Positions 3,548-31,645 of a DNA stretch of 64,000 nt are shown in pieces (position 1 is the stretch's first letter; each line of letters starts with the position of its first letter). Below the pieces are notes generated by a model, which made no database searches, was not told where the DNA came from, and saw only the letters and a program-made list of their open reading frames with translations. Where the stretch lies: positions 992,001 to 1,056,000 of the forward strand of contig NZ_CP086120.1 in NCBI RefSeq assembly GCF_021216675.1. The letters run 5' to 3'. The DNA comes from Streptomyces gobiensis (lineage in GTDB: Bacteria > Actinomycetota > Actinomycetes > Streptomycetales > Streptomycetaceae). Made by a program: the position numbers and the translations under genes.

Positions 3548-4822
3548 GTGTCCTCTCCGCTGCGCAACGTGCTGCCCGATCTGTCCCCATGGCGCTCCTC
3601 GCGCGACTTCCGGCTGATGTGGTGGGCCGGGGCAATCACCGTCTTCGGCAGCTTCCTCACCTTTGTGGCGCTGCCGCTCCAGCTCAAGGAGCTGACCGGC
3701 TCACCGTTAGCGGTCGGGGTGATCGGCGCGGTGGAGCTGGTCCCGCTGATCGTCTTCGGGCTGTACGGCGGTGCGCTCGCGGACGCCGTCGACCGGCGGA
3801 AGCTGATCATCTGGACCGAGGTGGCGCTGGGCGGCACGGCTCTGCTCCTGTTGACCAACACCCTCCTGGCCAGCCCGCTGATCTGGCCGCTGTACGCGGC
3901 TGCCGCGCTGACCAGCGCGCTCACCGGGCTGCAGCGTCCGGCGCTGACCGCGATCGTGCCGCGGATTGTCCCGCACGAGCAGCTGGCGGCGGCAGCCGCG
4001 CTGAACTCGGCGCGCTGGCAGATCGGCGCCATCGCGGGTCCCTCGGCCGCCGGGCTGGTGATCGTCTACGCCGGGCTGGAGGTGGCGTACGCGCTCGATG
4101 TCCTGACCTTCGCCGTCTCCGTGCTGCTGGCCTGGCAGCTGCGCCCCTGCCCCGCCGCCCATGACGCCGGGAAGCCCTCGCTGCGCGGTATCGCGGAGGG
4201 CGCCGTCTACGCCTGGCGGCGCAAAGAGCTGCTGGGCACCTATGTCGTCGATGTGGCGGCGATGTTCTTCGCCCTGCCCATCGCCGTCTTCCCGTTCCTC
4301 GCCGATCAGCTGGACGCTCCCTGGGCGCTGGGCCTGATGTACGCCGCCCTCCCGCTCGGCAGCGCCCTCGTCAGCGTGACCAGTGGCTGGACCAGCCGGG
4401 TCCAGCGGCACGGCCGGGCGGTCGTCGTCGGTGCGGCCGGTACGGGTGTGGCCATCGCCGCCGCGGGGCTGGCCGGCAATATCTGGCTGGTGCTGCTCTC
4501 GCTGACCGTCGCAGGCGGCTTCGACATGGTCAGCGGCATCTTCCGGTCCGCCATGTGGAATCAGACCATCCCCGATGAGCTACGGGGACGGCTGGCCGGG
4601 ATCGAGCTGCTTTCGTACACCGGCGGCCCCCAGCTCGGCCATGTCCGGGCGGGCGGTATGGCGGCGCTCACCTCCGTCCGTACCTCGATGTGGATCGGAG
4701 GCCTGACATGTGTGGCGGCGGTCGGCCTGCTGGCCGTATGCCTGCCGAGGCTGATGGCTTATGACGCCCGCACCAATGAGCACGCCCGGCGGATGCGGGA
4801 GCAGAAGGCCGCTCAGTCGTGA
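3548..4822 (+). CDS. MFS transporter (EntS-like, MFS_3 type)
   Basis: A 424-residue major facilitator with about twelve membrane segments. The motif GGALADAVDRRKLI between helices 2 and 3 is the MFS signature loop, and LQRPALTAIVPRIVPHEQLAAAAALNS is typical of the enterobactin-exporter-like MFS_3 group. The start is GTG (MSSPLRNVLPDLSPWRSSRDFRLMW). A different-frame ATG at 3523 leads to a short shadow product. Substrate cannot be inferred. The last ten bases overlap the end of the convergent small gene. Confidence 0.85.
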   Translation: MSSPLRNVLPDLSPWRSSRDFRLMWWAGAITVFGSFLTFVALPLQLKELTGSPLAVGVIGAVELVPLIVFGLYGGALADAVDRRKLIIWTEVALGGTALLLLTNTLLASPLIWPLYAAAALTSALTGLQRPALTAIVPRIVPHEQLAAAAALNSARWQIGAIAGPSAAGLVIVYAGLEVAYALDVLTFAVSVLLAWQLRPCPAAHDAGKPSLRGIAEGAVYAWRRKELLGTYVVDVAAMFFALPIAVFPFLADQLDAPWALGLMYAALPLGSALVSVTSGWTSRVQRHGRAVVVGAAGTGVAIAAAGLAGNIWLVLLSLTVAGGFDMVSGIFRSAMWNQTIPDELRGRLAGIELLSYTGGPQLGHVRAGGMAALTSVRTSMWIGGLTCVAAVGLLAVCLPRLMAYDARTNEHARRMREQKAAQS

Positions 4823-23102: not shown

Positions 23103-24179
23103 GCCGACCTCATCCTGCTCGGGGACCTCATCGGCCGCTACGCGACGGGCAGCTACAGCAAGCTCGACGCCGACGGCCGAGCCCTCATCCTGCGTGAGGA
23201 TCGCCAGGGCGCGGCTGACCACGGCCACCGCATCACCGCGGCCATCGCCTGCCACATCGCCCGTGTCGGCGGCAACGTCGACCAGCTGACACATTTGCTC
23301 ATGCACCCCGACCACGAGGGCGGTCGGCACGCTCAGAACACGCTGCGCTCCGGACAGGCACGTGCCCTCGACTACGTCCACCGGGTGTGGGCGAGCGCCA
23401 CGGGGAACAAGACCGACCTGCCGATCACCGAGCACGCCACCGACACGCACGGGGTGACGCTGGTCAACTTCGCGCTGTTCGATCTGGTGGGAATGCAGCT
23501 CTCGCCGCGGATCAGGGATCTGGGGAAGATCACCCTCTATCGGATGGACCCGCAGCGCGACGTCAGCAGGCTCTGGCCGGTCGCCGGTCCGCTGCTGACC
23601 CAGAAGATCAACATGGGGTTGATCGAAGAGAACTGGGACGACTTGCTACGGCTGGCGGCCTCGATCAAGTTCGGGCACGCCACCGCCTCCCTGATCGTCG
23701 GCAAGCTCTCCGCCTCCTCCCGGCAGAACACCCTGGCCGCCGCCCTCAAGGAGTACGGGGCCCTTCGGCGCACGATCTACGCTGCCCGCTACCTGGCGGA
23801 CGAGACCTACCGCCGCAAGATCGCCCGGCAGCTCAACAAGGGCGAGTCGCTGCACTCCCTGCGCCGCGACCTGCACTACGCCCACCAGGGCAAGATCCGC
23901 GAGCGGTTCCTGGCCGGGCAGACCGAGCAGGCGTGGTGCCTGACGGTGCTGACCAACTCCGTGGTGACCTGGACAAGCGAGTATTACGGCCTGGCCATCG
24001 CCCAGATGCGCGCCGAGGGCCGGGCGGTGGACGACGAACTGCTCGCGCACATTTCCCCGGCGCACAGTGAGAACGTCAACTACCACGGCACCATCAACGT
24101 GGAGGTCGACACCGAGCTCGCCAAGCTCGACCCGGCCGGGTACCGGCCGCTGCGGGCCCGGCGCCCGGATCGGGTGTGA
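23103..24179 (+). pseudogene. Chimeric remnant: unknown replication-like segment joined to Tn3-family transposase C-terminus
   Basis: One open frame joins two unrelated parts. About 100 residues (ADLILLGDLIGRYATGSYS through LLMHPDHEGGRHAQNT to HRVWASA) resemble plasmid or ICE replication/primase tails but are not assigned. From about 23410 on, TEHATDTHGVTLVNFALFDLVG through DLHYAHQGKIRERFLAGQTEQ to DPAGYRPLR is the C-terminal quarter of a Tn3-family DDE transposase. The transposase lacks its N-terminal two thirds and its first catalytic region, so it cannot work. No start with a ribosome site was found. Confidence 0.75.
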
Positions 24180-24210
24180 GACGCCAGAAGCATCTTCGCG
24201 GCGCGGGCCC

Positions 24211-24339
24211 CGAGAAGAACAGCTCGACCTGGTTGACCCAGGATGCGTGCGGCGGTGTCCAGTGCACGTGCCAGCGCGGATGAGCGGCGAGCCATGTCTT
24301 GGTGTGCTTGGCCGTGTGCGAGGAGCCGTTGTCAAGCAC
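24211..24339 (-). pseudogene. IS630-family transposase fragment
   Basis: MLDNGSSHTAKHTKTWLA, then PRWHVHWTPPHASWVNQVELFFS: 43 residues from the DDE end of an IS630 transposase (the second Asp in LDNGSSH and the Glu in NQVELFF). The rest is missing and the frame runs into the Tn3 remnant antisense. It stands three bases from the stop of the second PatA/PatG-like protease. Confidence 0.8.
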
Positions 24340-24342
24340 GCC

Positions 24343-26205
24343 CTATCGTTCGGACCAGGTGCGTACGGTGCCAAGGGTGACCGGGATGAGGTCGCTGACG
24401 TCGATGGTGAAGCGGTGAACCTTGCGGGCGCGGCGGTTGTTCTCCGGGTCGAAGAAGCGGAGTTTGACGTCCCAGCAGTCGCTGTGGAGGCGGCAGAAGG
24501 GGCTCTTTTCGACGTCGATGGTGTCCAGGGTCATGCCGTCGGCGACGGCGGAGGCGAAGGTGTCGGCGGCCTGGAAGGCGTTGGTGGCGGCGAAGTTCAG
24601 GGCCCGGTCGGCGGAGGTGGTTCCCAGGTTGCGCAGGTCGTAGTAGATACGGGCCAGGAACTCCCGGAACCGGCCGGTGAGGGCCTCATTCTCACCGGTG
24701 GGGTGACGGCGGGCGGCTTGAAGGGCTGCAGCCGCGAGTGTGTTGGTGTTCCAGCCGTACATGCCTCGGCGGGCGGCGACTTCGATGACGGGGACGACCT
24801 GGCCGGAGAAGAGCTTGACGGTGCGGCCGGTCAGCCGCCCGGGGATGCTGACCCGCTCGATGTATTCCTCGTCGTCCTCAGCAGCAACCTGTCCGGCCAG
24901 GAGACGGGTGAGCAACTCGTAGACGCCGGCCGCGTACGGGCTGGTGCTTTCGATGGCGTAGACCGGGGTGAGTTCCAGGTTCAGTGTCCAGATCAGCGAG
25001 GTGGCCTCGGAGGGATGCAGCCTGAGATGGTCCACCATCTGCCGGGAGTCATACGGATTGGCCGGCACCGCCGTGCCCTCGGCGGACACGGCGGCCATCA
25101 GCTGTTTGAAGCTGTCCCGCCGGGCCTCGGTGCCGAAGTCGTAGCCCAAGGTGCCCAGCACGTACGCCAGCGGACTCCACGCTGGGCCGCCGACACCTGA
25201 GGTCACCACGCCCGCGGCATGAGCCGCCGCCCTGGCGGGGGCCGCTACCTCCGTGGGGGCCGCTGCCTCGGAGACGGATGCGGGTGCACGGCTTGCCGGA
25301 ACCGCAGGTGGGGGCTGGGGGAACAGGATTGCGGCCGTGCCGCCGATGTCCAGCTTGCCGGCCATGCAGCGGGCCGGTTCGCCGTGGGCATCTTCGGGAC
25401 GACAGGGCCAGGCGCTTTCCAGCAGCGCGGCGCGCACTGCTGCCGGGTCGGGTGGCATGCCGTGTTGGCGTCGCAAACTGAGCAGCAGCGCGGCGACGCC
25501 GGTGACGATGGGTGCGGCGCAGCTGGTGCCTTTGTGGATCGCGGTTTTGCCGCCGGGGGCCGCGCCGTGGATGTTGCCGCCGGGGGCGACAATGCCGTGG
25601 TCGCGGTACTGCGGGCCGAAGTTGCTGAACTTGAACATCGTGCCGTCGTCGTCGCAGGCGCCGACGGCCAGGACCTGCGGCAGCGCGGCGGGGATGCACC
25701 GGCACTCTCCACAGTCGTTTCCCGAGGGCGCCACGATCAGTACCCCGGCATCGGTGGCGCGGGCGATCGCCCGCTTCAGCATGCCGTCGGCGTCGTCGGA
25801 GGAGGTCGGCATGCAGACCGCGATGTGAATGATGTCGACGGCGGCGTCCACTGCCGCCTCAATGCCCCGGGTCAGACTGACCGGATCCAACACACTGGCC
25901 TTGTCCCGCAGACACGGCACGATCACCCCGGAACACCGGGGCGCGATCCCGGTCACCGGGCTGCCGTGCTGGCCGAAGAGCACACTGGCGATGTGCGTCC
26001 CATGCTCAGCAAATCCGTCCTCGCCCTCGCCCTTGTCTTCTTCGCCGGGTAGCCAGCCCGGTTCGAGCACGGTGAGGTCTGCCCCGTCAAAACACGGATG
26101 GGTGACTTCGACGGGGCCGTCGAGCACGGCGATGCGGACTCCGGGATCACCCAAGGTCCGCTCCCACAGCGGGGCAAGGCCGGGGATGGACGCAAGGTCA
26201 GGCAC
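24343..26205 (-). CDS. PatA/PatG-type cyanobactin maturation protease, second copy
   Basis: A 620-residue subtilisin-like (S8) peptidase with a PatG-type C-terminal domain. Catalytic Asp29 (VLDGPVEVTHP), His68 (EHGTHIASV), oxyanion Asn163 (SGNDCGEC) and Ser228 (GTSCAAPIV) are all present. An Ala-rich linker (about 330-380) leads to the C-terminal domain, SPLAYVLGTLGYDFGTEARR through NFAATNAFQAADTFA to VTLGTVRTWSER. In cyanobactin pathways such enzymes cut off the leader (PatA) or cut the follower and close the ring (PatG); which job this copy does is not clear. It lacks the GGQL motif of its sister. The GTG start follows AAGGA. Confidence 0.88.
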   Translation of the reverse strand: MPDLASIPGLAPLWERTLGDPGVRIAVLDGPVEVTHPCFDGADLTVLEPGWLPGEEDKGEGEDGFAEHGTHIASVLFGQHGSPVTGIAPRCSGVIVPCLRDKASVLDPVSLTRGIEAAVDAAVDIIHIAVCMPTSSDDADGMLKRAIARATDAGVLIVAPSGNDCGECRCIPAALPQVLAVGACDDDGTMFKFSNFGPQYRDHGIVAPGGNIHGAAPGGKTAIHKGTSCAAPIVTGVAALLLSLRRQHGMPPDPAAVRAALLESAWPCRPEDAHGEPARCMAGKLDIGGTAAILFPQPPPAVPASRAPASVSEAAAPTEVAAPARAAAHAAGVVTSGVGGPAWSPLAYVLGTLGYDFGTEARRDSFKQLMAAVSAEGTAVPANPYDSRQMVDHLRLHPSEATSLIWTLNLELTPVYAIESTSPYAAGVYELLTRLLAGQVAAEDDEEYIERVSIPGRLTGRTVKLFSGQVVPVIEVAARRGMYGWNTNTLAAAALQAARRHPTGENEALTGRFREFLARIYYDLRNLGTTSADRALNFAATNAFQAADTFASAVADGMTLDTIDVEKSPFCRLHSDCWDVKLRFFDPENNRRARKVHRFTIDVSDLIPVTLGTVRTWSER

Positions 26206-26282
26206 AGCGATATTCCTTCGCGTCGGTCTCGAACGTGATCGGTGAGGGCTGCGGGGGCAGCCCTCACCGTGGAAAGGGGATG

Positions 26283-26507
26283 TCAGGCCCAGATGCGGCC
26301 TCGCCGAAATCCGGTCGACGGCTCTTCGCGCCGGTCCTGGAACATCTGCACCCACATGCCGTAGTCGACCAACCCGGTGAACAGACCACACTCCGGGATG
26401 ACCGGATGCTCTTCGGGAGCAGGCTTCTTTCTCGCTTTTTTCGCTGTGCTCGTCTTCACAGCAGTCTTCTTCGCCGCGGTCTTCGCCGTCGCGGGTTTCT
26501 CAGCCAT
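26283..26507 (-). CDS. PatC-like small cyanobactin-cluster protein
   Basis: A 74-residue protein with a Lys/Ala/Thr-rich first half (MAEKPATAKTAAKKTAVKTS) and a conserved-looking second half, HPVIPECGLFTGLVDYGMWVQMFQDRR, ending FRRGRIWA. The second half resembles the PatC/TenC/TruC family of cyanobactin clusters as I remember it; function there is unknown. The ATG overlaps the stop of the PatB-like gene by eight bases, so the two are co-translated. The Lys-rich tail could bind nucleic acid, which is inference. Confidence 0.72.
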   Translation of the reverse strand: MAEKPATAKTAAKKTAVKTSTAKKARKKPAPEEHPVIPECGLFTGLVDYGMWVQMFQDRREEPSTGFRRGRIWA

Positions 26508-26703
26508 GGCTGGACACCTGCATCCGGTCATATCCAGGCCACGCGAAATGCTGCGGATCGTTGACATTCGCGCCGTGCATCAAATCCATGCGGATCTTGA
26601 CGAGATGCGCGGGTGACCCGTGCACGACGTCGACCAGCTCGTGCGGGCGGACCAGTTCAGGCCGGCGCACCGGCGGAGCCTGCCTGGGCTGATGACCTGC
26701 CAT
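26500..26703 (-). CDS. PatB-like small cyanobactin-cluster protein
   Basis: A 67-residue protein: MAGHQPRQAPPVRRPELVRP, then HELVDVVHGSPAHLVKIRMDLMHGANVNDPQHFAWPGYDRM. The PVxRPxLVxPH...VDVVHG...MHGANxNDPxxFA pattern agrees with the PatB/AcyB/McaB family of cyanobactin clusters, recalled from memory. That family has no known catalytic role. The ATG at 26703 follows GGAAGGTGAGGGC, 14 bases after the stop of the first PatA/PatG-like gene, so all are probably one transcript. Confidence 0.82.
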   Translation of the reverse strand: MAGHQPRQAPPVRRPELVRPHELVDVVHGSPAHLVKIRMDLMHGANVNDPQHFAWPGYDRMQVSSHG

Positions 26704-26717
26704 GGCCCTCACCTTCC

Positions 26718-28637
26718 TTATCGTTCGGACCAGGTGCGTACGGTGCCAAGGGTGACCGGGATGAGGTCGCTGACGTCGATGGTGAAGCGGTAGACCTTGC
26801 GGGCGCGGCGGCTGTTCTCCGGGTCGAAGAAACGGAGTTTGACGTCCCAGCAGTCGCTGTCGATCCGGCAGAAGGGGCTCTTTTCGACCTCGATGGTGTC
26901 CAGGGTCATGCCGTCGGCGACGGCGGAGGCGAAGGTGTCGGCGGCCTGGAAGGCGTTGGTGGCGGCGAAGTTCAGGGCCCGGTCGGCGGAGGTGGTTCCC
27001 AGGTTGCGCAGGTCGTAGTAGACCCGGGCCAGGAATTCCCGGAACCGGCCGGTGAGGGCCTCATCAGTCTCACCGGTGGGGTGACTTCGGCGGGCGGCGG
27101 CGAGTGCCGCGGTCATCAAGGCGTTGATGTTCCAGCCGTACAGGCCTCGGGGGGCGGCGACTTCGATGACCGGGACGACCTGGCCGGAGAAGAGCTTGAC
27201 GGTGCGACCGGTCAGACGTCCCGGGACGCTGACCCGTTCGATGTAATCCTCGTCGTCCTCGGCAGCACACTCACCCGACAGCAGATCGGTAAGCAACTCG
27301 TAGACGCCTGCCGCGTACGGGCTGGTGCTTTCGATGGCGTAGACCGGGGTGAGTTCCAGGTTCAGTGTCCAGATCAGCGAGGTGGCCTCGGAGGGATGCA
27401 GCCTGAGATGGTCCACCATCTGCCGGGAGTCATACGGATTGGCCGGCACCGCCGTGCCCTCGGCGGACACCGCGGTCATCAGCTGCTTGAAACTGTCCCG
27501 CCGCGCCTCGGTGCCGAAGTCATAGCCCAAGGTACCCAGCGTGTACGCCAGCGGACTCCACACCGGGCCGTCGGCCCCCGAGGCCACCACCCCGGCAGCA
27601 CCCATCATCCCGGCGGCTGACACCACCTCGGCAGCAGCTGCTACCTCGGACACGGATACCGGTGCACGGCTTACCGGAACCTCAGGTGGGGCGTCGCTGA
27701 CCTCACCTCCACAACTGCACCCGCCGGCAGAAAGCTCGACCGGCTCGCTCGTGGTCACGTCGCCCGCTTCGGGCATGGCATACACCGCTTTCTTGATGTT
27801 GAGTTTTCCCGCCAAAAAACGCATACATGCACTGGGATCGGCCCACTGGCAGGCATCCGCGCTGTCCAGCAGCACCTGCCGCACCCGCCGCGGGTCCGGT
27901 TCCTGTCCCGCGCCCACCTGCAGGCTCAGCAACAGTGCGGCCACTCCCGAGACGATGGGTGCCGCGAAGCTGCTTCCGCTGGCCTTGGCCGTGCCCGAAC
28001 CCGGCACCGCGCCAAGGACGTTCGCCCCCGGGGCCAGAATTGCCTGCTGCTGATACGCCTGGCCCCAGTTGTTGGACTCCAGCGGGTCGCCCACATCATC
28101 AAGAGCTCCGGCCGCCAGCACGGAGGGCAGACAGGCCGGAACGTGATGGCAGAAACACCCGTCATTGCCCACCGCCGCCACCAGCAGCACGTTGCGCTCC
28201 TCACACAACCGCGCCGCCCTGTCCAGCAGGTCATCGGCCTCACCCGACGGGCTCAGCTGCCCACCGCTCAGATTGATCACATGGACGCCGGCCTCCACCG
28301 CCGCCTCGATCCCCCGGGCCAAATCCAGCTGCGAGGTCCGCCCTCGGCTATCGGAAAACGCCGGAATACTGACACCCCAGCATTTCGGGGCCACCCCGGG
28401 CGCCGGGCCCTCATGCTGCCCAAACAACACACTGGCCACCTGCGTCCCATGAGACGCCTTTGGCCCGTCGAACTCTTCCTCCGGCCAGATCCCGTCCAGA
28501 CGAGAGAGTTGCGCGCCATCAAACACCGGATGCGACAGATCGACCGGACCATCGATGACAGCCACGCCGATCCGCTCATCACCCAACGTCTGGCCCCACA
28601 ACTCAGCCAGACCCGCAATCGCGGGCACCTCACACAC
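26718..28637 (-). CDS. PatA/PatG-type cyanobactin maturation protease, first copy
   Basis: A 639-residue S8 peptidase plus PatG-type C-terminal domain. Catalytic Asp29 (VIDGPVDLSHP), His63 (ASHGTQVASV), Asn158 (VGNDGCFC) and Ser223 (GSSFAAPIVSG) are intact. LDLARGIEAAVEAGVHVINLSGGQLSPSGEAD closely follows cyanobacterial PatA as I remember it. A linker with GGCSCGG follows. The last about 285 residues are nearly identical to the other copy. It is the enzyme gene closest to the precursors, with its GTG start about 95 bases after the first precursor stop. A leader-cleaving (PatA) role is the better guess, unproven. Confidence 0.9.
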   Translation of the reverse strand: MCEVPAIAGLAELWGQTLGDERIGVAVIDGPVDLSHPVFDGAQLSRLDGIWPEEEFDGPKASHGTQVASVLFGQHEGPAPGVAPKCWGVSIPAFSDSRGRTSQLDLARGIEAAVEAGVHVINLSGGQLSPSGEADDLLDRAARLCEERNVLLVAAVGNDGCFCHHVPACLPSVLAAGALDDVGDPLESNNWGQAYQQQAILAPGANVLGAVPGSGTAKASGSSFAAPIVSGVAALLLSLQVGAGQEPDPRRVRQVLLDSADACQWADPSACMRFLAGKLNIKKAVYAMPEAGDVTTSEPVELSAGGCSCGGEVSDAPPEVPVSRAPVSVSEVAAAAEVVSAAGMMGAAGVVASGADGPVWSPLAYTLGTLGYDFGTEARRDSFKQLMTAVSAEGTAVPANPYDSRQMVDHLRLHPSEATSLIWTLNLELTPVYAIESTSPYAAGVYELLTDLLSGECAAEDDEDYIERVSVPGRLTGRTVKLFSGQVVPVIEVAAPRGLYGWNINALMTAALAAARRSHPTGETDEALTGRFREFLARVYYDLRNLGTTSADRALNFAATNAFQAADTFASAVADGMTLDTIEVEKSPFCRIDSDCWDVKLRFFDPENSRRARKVYRFTIDVSDLIPVTLGTVRTWSER

Positions 28638-28663
28638 CCGTCAACTCATCCCCTCAACAGCAT

Positions 28664-29515
28664 CCGCCCACCGACGCGGCATGCCGGACCGGCATATGAA
28701 CGCACCGGCCCGGCACTCCTGCCAAACAGTCCGCTACTCGGCGTCATCCCCAGCAAACGGAATGAATTTACCGACCTGTTCGACGTACCCAATCCCCGAG
28801 AGTTCGGCTCCGTCGTTGTTCTCGTTGGTTGCACCGACCGTTGTCCTGGTCACGGGCGGCGCCAGGTTCGGAATCATCTGCTCCTGCTCAGGCATGATAA
28901 AACCCTTCTTCGTTGATTTCCCTGCCAGAACTCCGGTGAGCTCAACCATTCGGCTCGTTCCCTGCAAACGGATGGGGCCGATAACGGCAACGGAGAACTC
29001 GACTCCCGCGCCGCACCCGCGTCTTCCGTCACACCGATGAGATGAGTGGTCAGCCGTCCCGTGCCGAATCGAGGGAATCCGTATCGTCAGCGTTGCATAC
29101 CTCCCTCGCCCCCGCACACCGGCCACTGGCGCCGGGCTCAAGACAACCCGAATGGAGCAGACAATCATCCCGTCCGCAAACCCGAGGCCGACGGCAACCA
29201 CCACACCCCCACAGACACGGAGGGTGACATGTAGACGAGTTATCCACTGCGTTGGGGCGTGCTCAGCCCCGTGCTGCTGAACGTGGCCCTGCACGGAATG
29301 GAGAAGGCGGCAGGGGTCCGCCAACAAATCAACCGCCTTGCCGAACCGGGAGAAGTGTCCTATAGCTGGATATAGGGAGTCAGTTAGCCACTCCCTCGTC
29401 TCAGGGATGCTCACCCACCGCAAGGGGCCCCACGCAGCGGACCGGAAACACACAACGTCTGGCTCTGCTCCGCTGTCTGGAGCGCCGGGACGGCCAGTAA
29501 ACGGAATGCAGTCTC
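28664..29515. repeat. Tandem precursor unit, copy 1
   Basis: An 852-base unit carrying the first precursor gene and its about 620-base upstream region. It abuts copy 2 exactly. The two differ by 15 bases in length, all within the core-peptide codons, plus scattered changes near the 3' end of the precursor. The upstream part is almost invariant. Confidence 0.9.
28734..28895 (-). CDS. Cyanobactin-type RiPP precursor peptide 1, core GIGYVEQVGKFIP
   Basis: A 53-residue peptide. The leader MPEQEQMIPNLAPPVTRTTV...ENNDGAELS shares the layout of PatE-like leaders. GAELS resembles the G-x-E-x-S site cut by PatA. The core GIGYVEQVGKFIP ends in Pro, the residue PatG-type macrocyclases accept, and is followed directly by FAGDDAE, a follower known from cyanobactin precursors (from memory). 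Predicted product: a 13-residue head-to-tail ring, or 14 if Ser is kept. The ATG follows GAAGAAGGG. An upstream in-frame ATG would add 18 residues and is less likely. Confidence 0.88.
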   Translation of the reverse strand: MPEQEQMIPNLAPPVTRTTVGATNENNDGAELSGIGYVEQVGKFIPFAGDDAE

Positions 29516-29585
29516 CCGCCCACCGACACAGCATGCCGGACCGGCACATAAACGCACCGGCCCAGCACTCCTGCCGACCAACCTG
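28896..29585. other. Upstream region of precursor 1, and junction to copy 2
   Basis: About 690 bases without a convincing gene. The first 620 are repeated almost exactly at 29733-30352. They should hold the minus-strand promoter of precursor 1. Small frames on both strands look random. It contains GAATGGAGCAGACAATCATCC and a GGATATAGGGAG motif, but no assignable promoter. Confidence 0.5.
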
Positions 29586-30352
29586 CTACTCGGCGTCATC
29601 TCCAGCAAACGGGGCCCACGCAAAGCCTTGCCATGAGAGTTCGGCTCCGTCGTTGTTTTCGTTGGTTGCGCCGACCGTTGTCCTGGTCACGGGCGGCGCC
29701 AGGTTCGGAATCATCTGCTCCTGCTCAGGCATGATAAAACCCTTCTTCGTTGATTTCCCTGCCAGAACTCCGGTGAGCTCAACCATTCGGCTCGTTCCCT
29801 GCAAACGGATGGGGCCGATAACGGCAACGGAGAACTCGACTCCCGCGCCGCACCCGCGTCTTCCGTCACACCGATGAGATGAGTGGTCAGCCGTCCCGTG
29901 CCGAATCGAGGGAATCCGTATCGTCAGCGTTGCATACCTCCCTCGCCCCCGCACACCGGCCACTGGCGCCGGGCTCAAGACAACCCGAATGGAGCAGACA
30001 ATCATCCCGTCCGCAAACCCGAGGCCGACGGCAACCACCACACCCCCACAGACACGGAGGGTGACATGTAGACGAGTTATCCACTGCGTTGGGGCGTGCT
30101 CAGCCCCGTGCTGCTGAACGTGGCCCTGCACGGAATGGAGAAGGCGGCAGGGGTCCGCCAACAAATCAACCGCCTTGCCGAACCGGGAGAAGTGTCCTAT
30201 AGCTGGATATAGGGAGTCAGTTAGCCACTCCCTCGTCTCAGGGATGCTCACCCACCGCAAGGGGCCCCACGCAGCGGACCGGAAACACACAACGTCTGGC
30301 TCTGCTCCGCTGTCTGGAGCGCCGGGACGGCCAGTAAACGGAATGCAGTCTC
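29516..30352. repeat. Tandem precursor unit, copy 2
   Basis: An 837-base unit directly following copy 1 with no spacer. It carries precursor 2. Both units end in the same GGAATGCAGTCTC, after which copy 2 meets the truncated metalloprotease sequence. Confidence 0.9.
29586..29732 (-). CDS. Cyanobactin-type RiPP precursor peptide 2, core WQGFAWAP
   Basis: A 48-residue peptide with the same leader as precursor 1 at the amino-acid level, the same GAELS site and the same FAGDDAE follower. The core is WQGFAWAP, eight residues (nine with Ser), again ending in Pro. The predicted product is an aromatic cyclic octapeptide with two Trp and one Phe. The ribosome site and start are identical to precursor 1. 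No Cys, Thr or Ser lies within the core for azoline formation, in keeping with the absence of a YcaO enzyme. Confidence 0.88.
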   Translation of the reverse strand: MPEQEQMIPNLAPPVTRTTVGATNENNDGAELSWQGFAWAPFAGDDAE

Positions 30353-30484
30353 GGCACCCTGGTGCACGAGTTCAGCCACGCCGTTCCAGCACGACCTCGT
30401 CCATGGCCAGGCGGGGCGGGCAACCTGGCAAAGAACCGGCCAGCGGACGCGATCCGCAACGCAGACAACCACGAGTGCATTCAC
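30353..30484 (+). pseudogene. M35-like metalloprotease remnant (HEFSH...NADNHE)
   Basis: In one frame [10 protein letters not shown] is followed by about 20 residues and then [11 protein letters not shown]. HExxH plus NADxxE is the aspzincin/M35 (deuterolysin and peptidyl-Lys endopeptidase) arrangement. The 5' part is missing: homology starts exactly where precursor unit copy 2 ends. A one-base shift then separates it from the in-frame FTEEVSEQM that opens the hemopexin protein. The original gene was probably a protease fused to hemopexin repeats. Confidence 0.6.
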
Positions 30485-30503
30485 CGAGGAGGTGTCCGAG
30501 CAG

Positions 30504-31088
30504 ATGGTTACAGCACCAGTACTCTGGAACAACGGCAAGGCGTACCTGTTCGACGGCAGTACGTACTACCGCTACGACATCGCCACCGACAAGGTCGACC
30601 CGGGCTACCCGAAGCCGATCGCCGGCAACTGGACCGGGCTGTTCACCTCCCGGGTCGACGCCGGCGTGGTGTGGAACAACGGCAAGGCGTACTTCTTCCG
30701 CGGCTCCGAGTACGTGCGCTACGACATCGCCACCTCCAAGGTCGACGACGGCTACCCGAAGCCGATCGCCGGCAACTGGCCGGAGCTGTTCACCTCCCAC
30801 ATCGACGCCTCCGTCGTGTGGAACAACGGCAAGGCGTACTTCTTCCGCGGCTCCGAGTACATCCGCTACGACATCGCCACCGGCAAGGCCGACGACGGCT
30901 ACCCGAAGCCGATCGCCGGCAACTGGCCGGGACTGTGGGCGACGGACCTCGACGGCGGCGTGGTGTGGAACAACGGCAAGGCGTACTTCTTCCGCGGCTC
31001 CGAGTACATCCGCTACGACATCGCCACCGGCAAGGCCGACGACGGCTACCCGAAGCCGATCGCCGGCAACTGGCCGGGACTCCCGTAG
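30504..31088 (+). CDS. Hemopexin-repeat protein
   Basis: 194 residues made of four near-identical 48-residue hemopexin-like repeats, each with [20 protein letters not shown]...[13 protein letters not shown]. This should fold as a small four-bladed propeller. There is no signal peptide. The ATG at 30504 follows GAGGAGG by 11 bases; an earlier in-frame GTG (30492) sits too close to that site. In-frame sequence upstream (FTEEV) suggests it was once the C-terminal part of the truncated metalloprotease just before it. A strong terminator follows. Ligand unknown. Confidence 0.82.
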
Positions 31089-31117
31089 ACCCCCGGCCCC
31101 TGACTACCGCCCCACAC

Positions 31118-31145
31118 GAGGGGAGCCTCCACCGAGGCTCCCCTC
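31118..31145 (+). terminator. Terminator of the hemopexin-repeat gene
   Basis: GAGGGGAGCCTC and GAGGCTCCCCTC form a perfect 12-bp stem with loop CACC, 30 bases after the stop. Confidence 0.85.
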
Positions 31146-31311
31146 CCCGGGGTGTCAAAGCATCAAAGCACGGAGCGTCAAAGCGCGCGGCCCCGGAGAA
31201 CCAGCTCTGCGGCGGCGGTACGGCGCCGACCCCAGCGGCGACCCAGCCATTCCGCCGCGTGTCGTCGCCCATCCGGCGAGAGAAGCCGCCGGTCCATTTG
31301 CGCTTAGAACT

Positions 31312-31410
31312 CGCCCGGATGTGGGAGCCGTCGACCGCCGCCCGGGAGAAGTCCAGGGCGTTCGCGCCGCGGAGCTTGGCGAGGAGGACCGCGTGCAGCC
31401 GGGGCCACAC
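31312..31410 (-). pseudogene. IS5-family transposase fragment
   Basis: VWPRLHAVLLAKLRGANALDF followed by SRAAVDGSHIRA: about 33 residues around the first catalytic Asp (VDGSHIRA) of an IS5-type transposase. Both ends are lost. It directly abuts the partial third precursor unit and may mark the recombination event that placed it there. Confidence 0.75.
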
Positions 31411-31417
31411 TCCGGCC

Positions 31418-31645
31418 CAACAGCATCCGCCCACCGACACAGCATGCCGGACCGGCACATAAACGCACCGGCCCAGCACTCCTGCCGACCAACCTGCTAC
31501 TCGGCGTCATCTCCAGCAAACGGGGCCCACGCAAAGCCTTGCCATGAGAGTTCGGCTCCGTCGTTGTTCTCGTTGGTTGCACCGACCGTTGTCCTGGTCA
31601 CCGGCGGCGCCAGGTTCGGAATCATCTGCTCCTGCTCAGGCATGA
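31418..31645. repeat. Partial third precursor unit
   Basis: Matches copies 1 and 2 from the 3' flank of the precursor gene through its ATG, then diverges at the third base upstream of the start. It therefore has the coding part but not the conserved upstream region. It begins CAACAGCATCCGCCCACC like the sequence before copy 1. Confidence 0.85.
31497..31643 (-). CDS. Cyanobactin-type RiPP precursor peptide 3, core WQGFAWAP, promoter lost
   Basis: 48 residues, identical in protein sequence to precursor 2. At three silent sites in the leader it differs from copy 2 and at two of them matches copy 1, so it is a mosaic. The conserved upstream region and the GAAGAAGGG ribosome site are replaced by unrelated sequence (CAGACGCCGTTTC before the ATG), so expression is doubtful. 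It may serve as a silent donor copy. Confidence 0.75.
   Translation of the reverse strand: MPEQEQMIPNLAPPVTRTTVGATNENNDGAELSWQGFAWAPFAGDDAE

Follow-up and report, generated by a model that had tools for sequence, protein, structure and literature searches.

A minimal cyanobactin-type gene cassette in Streptomyces gobiensis with a PatG-like protease that lacks the macrocyclization insert

A 64-kb window of Streptomyces gobiensis DNA (the whole stretch that was analysed, lying in a single-contig genome of 5.69 Mb, and whose own numbering is used for all coordinates) is confirmed, at the level of sequence, to hold a minimal cyanobactin-type gene cassette composed of precursors, an A protease, PatB, PatC and a G protease. 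With a probability that we put at about 0.6, the G protease would cut between the last Pro of the core peptide and the follower FAGDDAE and likely join the ends of the cores into rings of 8 and 13 residues; its choice between cyclisation and hydrolysis cannot be read from sequence. Cassettes of this class have already been called by software and, as far as our searches show, not studied, and the G protease is without the part that defines PatG. The genes lie on the minus strand in the order E1, E2 and E3 precursors, A-type subtilase, PatB, PatC and G-type subtilase:

31497..31643, minus strand: precursor gene E1, 48 aa, with leader to GAELS, core WQGFAWAP and follower FAGDDAE (open reading frame (ORF) and DNA reading)
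29586..29732, minus strand: precursor gene E2, 48 aa, peptide identical to that of E1
28734..28895, minus strand: precursor gene E3, 53 aa, core GIGYVEQVGKFIP, follower FAGDDAE; the precursor closest to the proteases
26718..28637, minus strand: A-type (PatA-like) subtilase with PatG_D/PatG_C domain, 639 aa (TIGR03895, tree, structure relatives)
26500..26703, minus strand: PatB-like protein; the ORF opens at 26712 and the ATG at 26703 is the likely start (TIGR04220)
26283..26507, minus strand: PatC-like protein; ORF 26283-26567, with the ATG at 26507 as likely start (TIGR04447)
24343..26205, minus strand: G-type (PatG-like) subtilase with PatG_D/PatG_C domain, 620 aa; likely GTG start at 26205 (ORF 24343-26391)
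28664..30352: tandem duplication holding E3 and E2 (copies about 28664-29515 and 29516-30352), 95.3% over 852 columns, spacing 837
24212..29159: unit common to L106, another genome of the same genus, with 92% identity and unlike flanks

A preliminary description of this DNA had placed a cyanobactin-type set here and on this strand, and every part that it named was found, the protease, PatB and PatC families that it proposed for checking all being matched above their NCBIfam cut-offs. The start of PatC is overlapped by the stop of PatB, and the order E-A-B-C-G is in keeping with known cyanobactin clusters, in which A, B and C are linked. Cut-offs (in bits) are 421 for TIGR03895, 55 for TIGR04220, 30 for TIGR04447 and 35 for TIGR04446, with 25 for DUF5840. 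The A protease (26718-28637) reached 780.1 bits with TIGR03895, 137.2 with PatG_C and 41.8 with PatG_D, the corresponding values for the G protease ORF (24343-26391) being 754.3, 129.1 and 46.3, while the PatB ORF (26500-26712) scored 84.6 with TIGR04220 and PatC 41.7 with TIGR04447. The features by which a cyanobactin cluster is recognised, namely A and G proteases with a common C-terminal domain together with PatB and PatC, are thereby present. Alignment and the PatG_D/PatG_C matches also bear out the earlier claim that both proteases keep the catalytic Asp, His, Asn and Ser, which a PatG-type macrocyclase likewise has, and a PatG-type C-terminal domain. No YcaO was matched in the S. gobiensis genome (5/14 controls matched), and the cyanobactin prenyltransferase TIGR04445 was matched in 0/9 actinobacterial genomes, S. 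gobiensis included, against 4/4 cyanobacterial controls, three of them above cut-off. The absence of both enzymes, already noted before these genome searches and their positive controls, means that no modification of the ring is expected.

Each precursor consists of a leader, GAELS, a core and FAGDDAE followed by the stop, so that the architecture first described, with its Pro-ended core, holds on reading E1-E3. Two different cores are distributed across the three genes, WQGFAWAP (8 residues) in E1 and E2 and GIGYVEQVGKFIP (13 residues) in E3. The two precursors of L106 share GAELS and FAGDDAE with those of S. gobiensis and have leaders similar to theirs, but their cores are VAVTGGPYPP and QFTYDAINFPP; between the two genomes the core is variable and the leader and follower are conserved. 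A precursor-like ORF, recognised by motif and by eye, also lies immediately upstream of the A protease in all seven named actinobacterial loci (L008, L009, L022, L052, L054, L061 and L072). Position and core variation support E1-E3 as precursors. The core boundaries are indicated by the precursor of Nonomuraea pusilla (L072), in which three cassettes of VEQS, core and FAG follow in series. PatA-like enzymes are described as cleaving after G(L/V)E(A/P)S (PMC10885120). From this cleavage and the L072 cassettes, the Ser that precedes the core is most likely part of the recognition site and not of the core.

Pro is the last residue in 13 of the 15 distinct actinobacterial cores predicted from the seven loci, L106 and S. 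gobiensis. According to PMC10043927, substrates of PatGmac must, or nearly must, end in Pro, and heterocycle-free cyanobactins are given as having 7-20 residues and a conserved Pro (PMC4663559). The computed [M+H]+ values are 944.4413 (cyclic) and 962.4519 (linear) for WQGFAWAP, and 1388.7572 (cyclic) and 1406.7678 (linear) for GIGYVEQVGKFIP; GIGYVEQVGKFIPFAGDDAE may serve as a candidate substrate peptide for the G catalytic domain. E1 resembles E2 only from 2 nt 5' of the ATG onward (219 nt, 99%); this duplicate has lost the region upstream of it and may be silent.

The G protease departs from PatG precisely at the stretch between the catalytic Asp and His, where a PatG-type macrocyclase has its helical insert and where none was found in the S. 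gobiensis enzyme. In PatG these residues are Asp548 and His618 (PMC4979651); two helices are described as the macrocyclization insert (PMC4663559), and the helix-turn-helix is reported to bind AYDG and to shield the acyl-enzyme from water (PMC10043927). Across 121 aligned catalytic domains (10 further matches without a full domain being left out), the Asp-His spacing was 32-36 in 72/72 A enzymes, and 70-170 in 37/37 cyanobacterial and 71 in 3/3 proteobacterial G enzymes, this wide spacing reflecting the PatG insert. It was 35-42 in 8/8 actinobacterial G enzymes (39 in S. gobiensis), where the insert is missing, and 34 in one Eremiobacterota enzyme. In the AlphaFold2 model of the G enzyme (24343-26202; mean pLDDT 84.1), the segment between strand 42-45 and helix 62-76 is a loop with one three-residue turn, at low confidence (pLDDT ~59). 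When aligned by Foldseek, this model matched PagA across 289 columns with a TM score by target of 0.94-0.95, and six PatGmac chains across 328-331 columns with scores of 0.79-0.83. The match to the PatG macrocyclase 4AKS is split in two stretches, the best one starting from residue 65, and for a Cys-type relative considered below, P0015, the structure alignment skips 36 chain residues at the position of the insert. The initial forecast of plain head-to-tail cycles is weakened by this lack of the insert.

The catalytic-domain tree was built from 73 hand-picked sequences of the 121 extracted, columns filled in less than 60% of rows being dropped; its bootstrap had yet to settle completely, and the order in which the A enzymes branch is left open by it. 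A and G enzymes separate (A side 100/100). The eight actinobacterial A enzymes form one clade on the A side (100/100), and the eight actinobacterial G enzymes one clade on the PatG side (98/94), which falls outside the 24 insert-bearing G enzymes (21 cyanobacterial and 3 proteobacterial; 100/99). The comparison with PatA and PatG that had been proposed consequently places the first protease in the A clade and the second on the PatG side. PagA and PatA are the closest solved relatives of the A protease, and the nearest named G proteases, among the matches listed, are those of Streptomyces sp. T21Q-yed (89%) and Streptomyces sp. 1222.5 (79%). The second protease as a mere duplicated PatA was ruled out, the two catalytic domains being 57% identical in DNA and the enzyme lying on the PatG side. 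Elsewhere, Bradyrhizobium (L067, L085) and Sphingomonas (L056) have A and G proteases of cyanobactin type with the insert present, L067 and L085 showing PatE-like precursors with LAELSEE in the leader and Cys in the core. Lidless G-like proteases placed apart from the actinobacterial clade were seen in L082 (Eremiobacterota), P0085, P0093, P0129 and P0095.

Within the actinobacterial G clade, 4/8 enzymes (L052, L054, L061 and L072) have Cys in place of the catalytic Ser, and Ala (three) or Ser (one) in place of the Pro four residues on, while the S. gobiensis enzyme reads GTSCAAP and keeps both Ser and Pro. A wider set of 170 proteins came from two database searches (55 + 115, the second from 120 listed of 538 matches); BLAST placed 137 of them closest to G references and the other 33 closest to A references. 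Among the 137, the insert is present in 58, all Ser/Pro, and missing in 77 (48 Ser/Pro, 27 Cys/non-Pro and 2 Ser/Ala); two further Cys proteins end before the Asp. All 29 Cys enzymes are without the Pro (22 Ala, 4 Ser, 3 Thr), and, being related sequences, they do not represent 29 events. Second proteases with a Cys nucleophile and without that Pro are those of L052, L054, L061, L072, P0006-P0033 and P0043. Two Nonomuraea enzymes, apparently intermediates, combine Ser with Ala, as do 2/33 A-nearest proteins. In a quick tree of 98 hand-picked rows, with the two trait columns masked and the root not known, one change each accounts for the insert and for Cys (support of 98 for the insert clade and 92 for the Cys clade), and lidless Singulisphaera and Caulobacter proteins stand elsewhere; this fits a single gain of the insert and does not prove it. 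PatG_D/PatG_C had no match in any of the seven Cys-type proteins or frames scanned; GNAT was matched in three of them, one below cut-off, and also in the Ser-type P0038.

The engineered subtiligase/peptiligase is subtilisin S221C/P225A, and peptiligases in one listing bear an 'A225N' change. By analogy with this engineered-ligase pattern, the Cys and non-Pro combination suggests that peptide joining is the selected activity in the daughter clade. Subtiligase donors are said to be esters or thioesters only (PMC8745061), so that activity of the Cys-type enzymes could depend on an unusual substrate, or be lacking. Taken more broadly, actinobacteria may harbour an old and separate cyanobactin branch, with a ring-closing protease lidless from the start or by loss and a natural Cys/Ala subtiligase evolved within it, a scenario that we put forward as tentative.

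Comparison with L106 indicates purifying selection, with dN/dS of 0.08 for the A catalytic domain and of 0.13 and 0.17 for the C-terminal domains. The A and G genes of S. gobiensis are 57% identical in DNA over the catalytic domains (dS 1.40) and 93% over the C-terminal domains (dS 0.16), and those of L106 57% (dS 1.44) and 92% (dS 0.19), respectively. The G C-terminal domains differ more between the two genomes (dS 0.25) than A and G do within either, which indicates that in both genomes these domains have been homogenised, most simply by gene conversion. Such homogenisation suggests that A and G need the same C-terminal domain surface. A recent duplication of the whole protease genes, considered for their 85% protein identity, was discarded, similarity being confined to the homogenised C-terminal part.

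The order precursor, A, PatB, G is common to the seven named actinobacterial loci, PatB being recognised by eye in all seven and shortened in L009; PatC lies between the proteases only in S. gobiensis, L106 and L008 of the loci compared. No further conserved flank genes appear among the part of the flank comparison listed. In a sample of the genus, 8/295 genomes exceeded the TIGR03895 cut-off and two (S. gobiensis and G103) have the A and G cassette; the other six encode a longer protease of another type, with no partner in the stretch read. A fused A-G protein in G103, considered for its open frame of 1462 aa, was dismissed, as DNA reading gives two separate frames. In the same genus, L088-L093 hold a longer PatA-like protease, in frames of 804-997 aa, that includes the C-terminal domain; no G partner was seen in the stretch read, and a frame like a BTAD-type regulator adjoins some of them (by eye). 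In a sample of the phylum, 2/396 genomes gave matches at E <= 1e-100, S. gobiensis and L107. The latter, from another family of the phylum, has a PatA-like protease with no G partner within the 4.9 kb read; after this protease, at ~3736-3900, a short ORF has a precursor-like leader, LPPQASPIDRTPAG (by eye).

Mobile-element debris surrounds the S. gobiensis cassette at 23295-24340 and ~31300-31400. The cassette is flanked by a Tn3 DDE transposase, an IS630-like remnant directly follows the G gene and has matching DNA in L106, and an IS5-like fragment lies near E1, both of the latter recognised by eye. Between E1 and E2, on the opposite strand (30492-31088, plus), a 198-aa protein with four hemopexin repeats is encoded.

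For the cyclisation that we prefer, the A protease would cut after GAELS and free the N-terminus of the core; the G protease would form an acyl-enzyme at the last Pro of the core, and the core N-terminus, not water, would resolve it, giving an unmodified ring. Without the PatG lid, the amine might be favoured by the active site, by PatG_D/PatG_C or by a partner, PatB or PatC, although this is a guess. Considering (i) the family matches and the position of the enzyme on the PatG side, (ii) the Pro-ended cores and their lengths of 8 and 13, (iii) the repeated cassettes of L072 and the variability of the cores, and (iv) the purifying selection and the ligase-like daughter clade, cyclisation is favoured. 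Several observations nonetheless weigh against it. In the S. gobiensis G enzyme both the lid and the Cys/Ala change are missing, and the lack of the helix-turn-helix reported to shield the acyl-enzyme makes hydrolysis to linear peptides possible. Its catalytic domain is less constrained than that of the A enzyme (dN/dS against L106 of 0.36 versus 0.08), and Glu replaces the catalytic Asp in 2/8 actinobacterial and 2/37 cyanobacterial G enzymes, S. gobiensis keeping the Asp. Both L106 cores end in Pro-Pro, and the cores of L008 and L009 (2/15), whose boundaries are the least certain, have no final Pro. E1-E3 agree with PatE-type precursors in architecture and synteny, with weak scores below the curated cut-offs (20.3-25.5 bits with TIGR04446, E1 giving 20.3 and E3 25.5; 17.8-18.7 with DUF5840), and a sigma-70-type scan gave no promoter-like site.

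Were the G protease a plain C-terminal protease, linear and leader-free peptides ending in Pro would result, an outcome that we judge unlikely while giving it real weight. It would suit an enzyme whose insert, credited with excluding water, is missing and whose catalytic model is nearer to PagA, a plain protease, than to PatGmac, as well as the L106 cores, since PatGmac failed in vitro to cyclise substrate with two prolines in a row (PMC10043927). Some cyanobactins are linear, but the ends of those described carry prenyl and methyl groups (PMC4663559), and no end-capping enzyme was recognised within the cassette. The PatG-side position of the enzyme, the final Pro kept in 13/15 cores and a daughter clade with a ligase-like active site also argue against hydrolysis. 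That the cassette is a decaying mobile remnant with no product appears improbable: the transposase and IS fragments alongside, the lost upstream region of E1 and the rarity of the cassette in the genus would agree with decay, but all its frames are open, dN/dS against L106 stays at 0.08-0.36 in the measured domains, and it is the cores that vary, leaders and followers being much alike. A cyanobacterial donor in the recent past is scarcely credible. Most of the 78 loci fetched with the A protease are cyanobacterial, yet the actinobacterial A and G enzymes form clades of their own, the G clade lying outside the insert-bearing enzymes, and the GC content of 24343-28895 (66.7%) is near that of the window (69.1%).

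In the statements available from two reviews, cyanobactins come from cyanobacteria 'only' (PMC4663559, 2015) and cyanobacterial taxa are named as their sources (PMC11002830, 2024), in line with the preliminary description. Its view of the set as unexpected for Streptomyces did not stand, as automated calls are in print and seven actinobacterial loci have the same order. Software has called cyanobactin clusters in S. lydicus A02, S. venezuelae (BAGEL3) and 7/1,110 Streptomyces genomes, PMC8510958 states that it knows of no report of expression of such clusters, and public annotation already names such proteins. Among open-licence papers searched for actinobacterial cyanobactins and for natural subtiligases, and judged by title or abstract start, none was found on lidless or Cys-type cyanobactin proteases. 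PatG is a model for the change from protease to macrocyclase, and its lid is credited with the exclusion of water (PMC4663559, PMC10043927); a lidless sister clade with mostly Pro-ended substrates makes this explanation testable with natural enzymes. Cyclisation by lidless enzymes would show the lid to be dispensable, and hydrolysis would mean that actinobacteria have a linear cyanobactin branch. The Cys/Ala daughter clade would be nature's equivalent of the engineered ligase, from which small, compact cyclases might be obtained, and the cassettes give access to short gene-encoded peptides whose cores vary, in bacteria that are easy to grow.

Among known systems, the heterocycle-free pathways (anacyclamide/piricyclamide) share with the S. 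gobiensis cassette a short leader, a variable core ending in Pro, a GDDAE follower, A and G proteases, PatB, PatC and the absence of YcaO. They differ in that a prenyltransferase match is present in 4/4 cyanobacterial and missing in 9/9 actinobacterial cases, and in the insert that the actinobacterial G enzyme is without. PatGmac (PDB 4AKS/4AKT/4H6X) has the same subtilase triad, PatG-type C-terminal domain and side of the tree, and the G-enzyme model is 54% identical to the PatG DUF (4UVQ) over the C-terminal domain; on the contrary, the Asp-His spacing is 39 in S. gobiensis against 70, and the capping helices and oxidase domain are missing. The first protease is of the PatA/PagA type (PDB 4H6V, 4H6W, 3ZXX), and the second resembles this type in being also without the insert, whereas in the tree it groups with PatG. 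Finally, the likeness to subtiligase/peptiligase concerns the daughter clade, in which 29/29 enzymes with a Cys nucleophile have Ala, Ser or Thr where the Pro would be, while the S. gobiensis enzyme itself keeps Ser and Pro.

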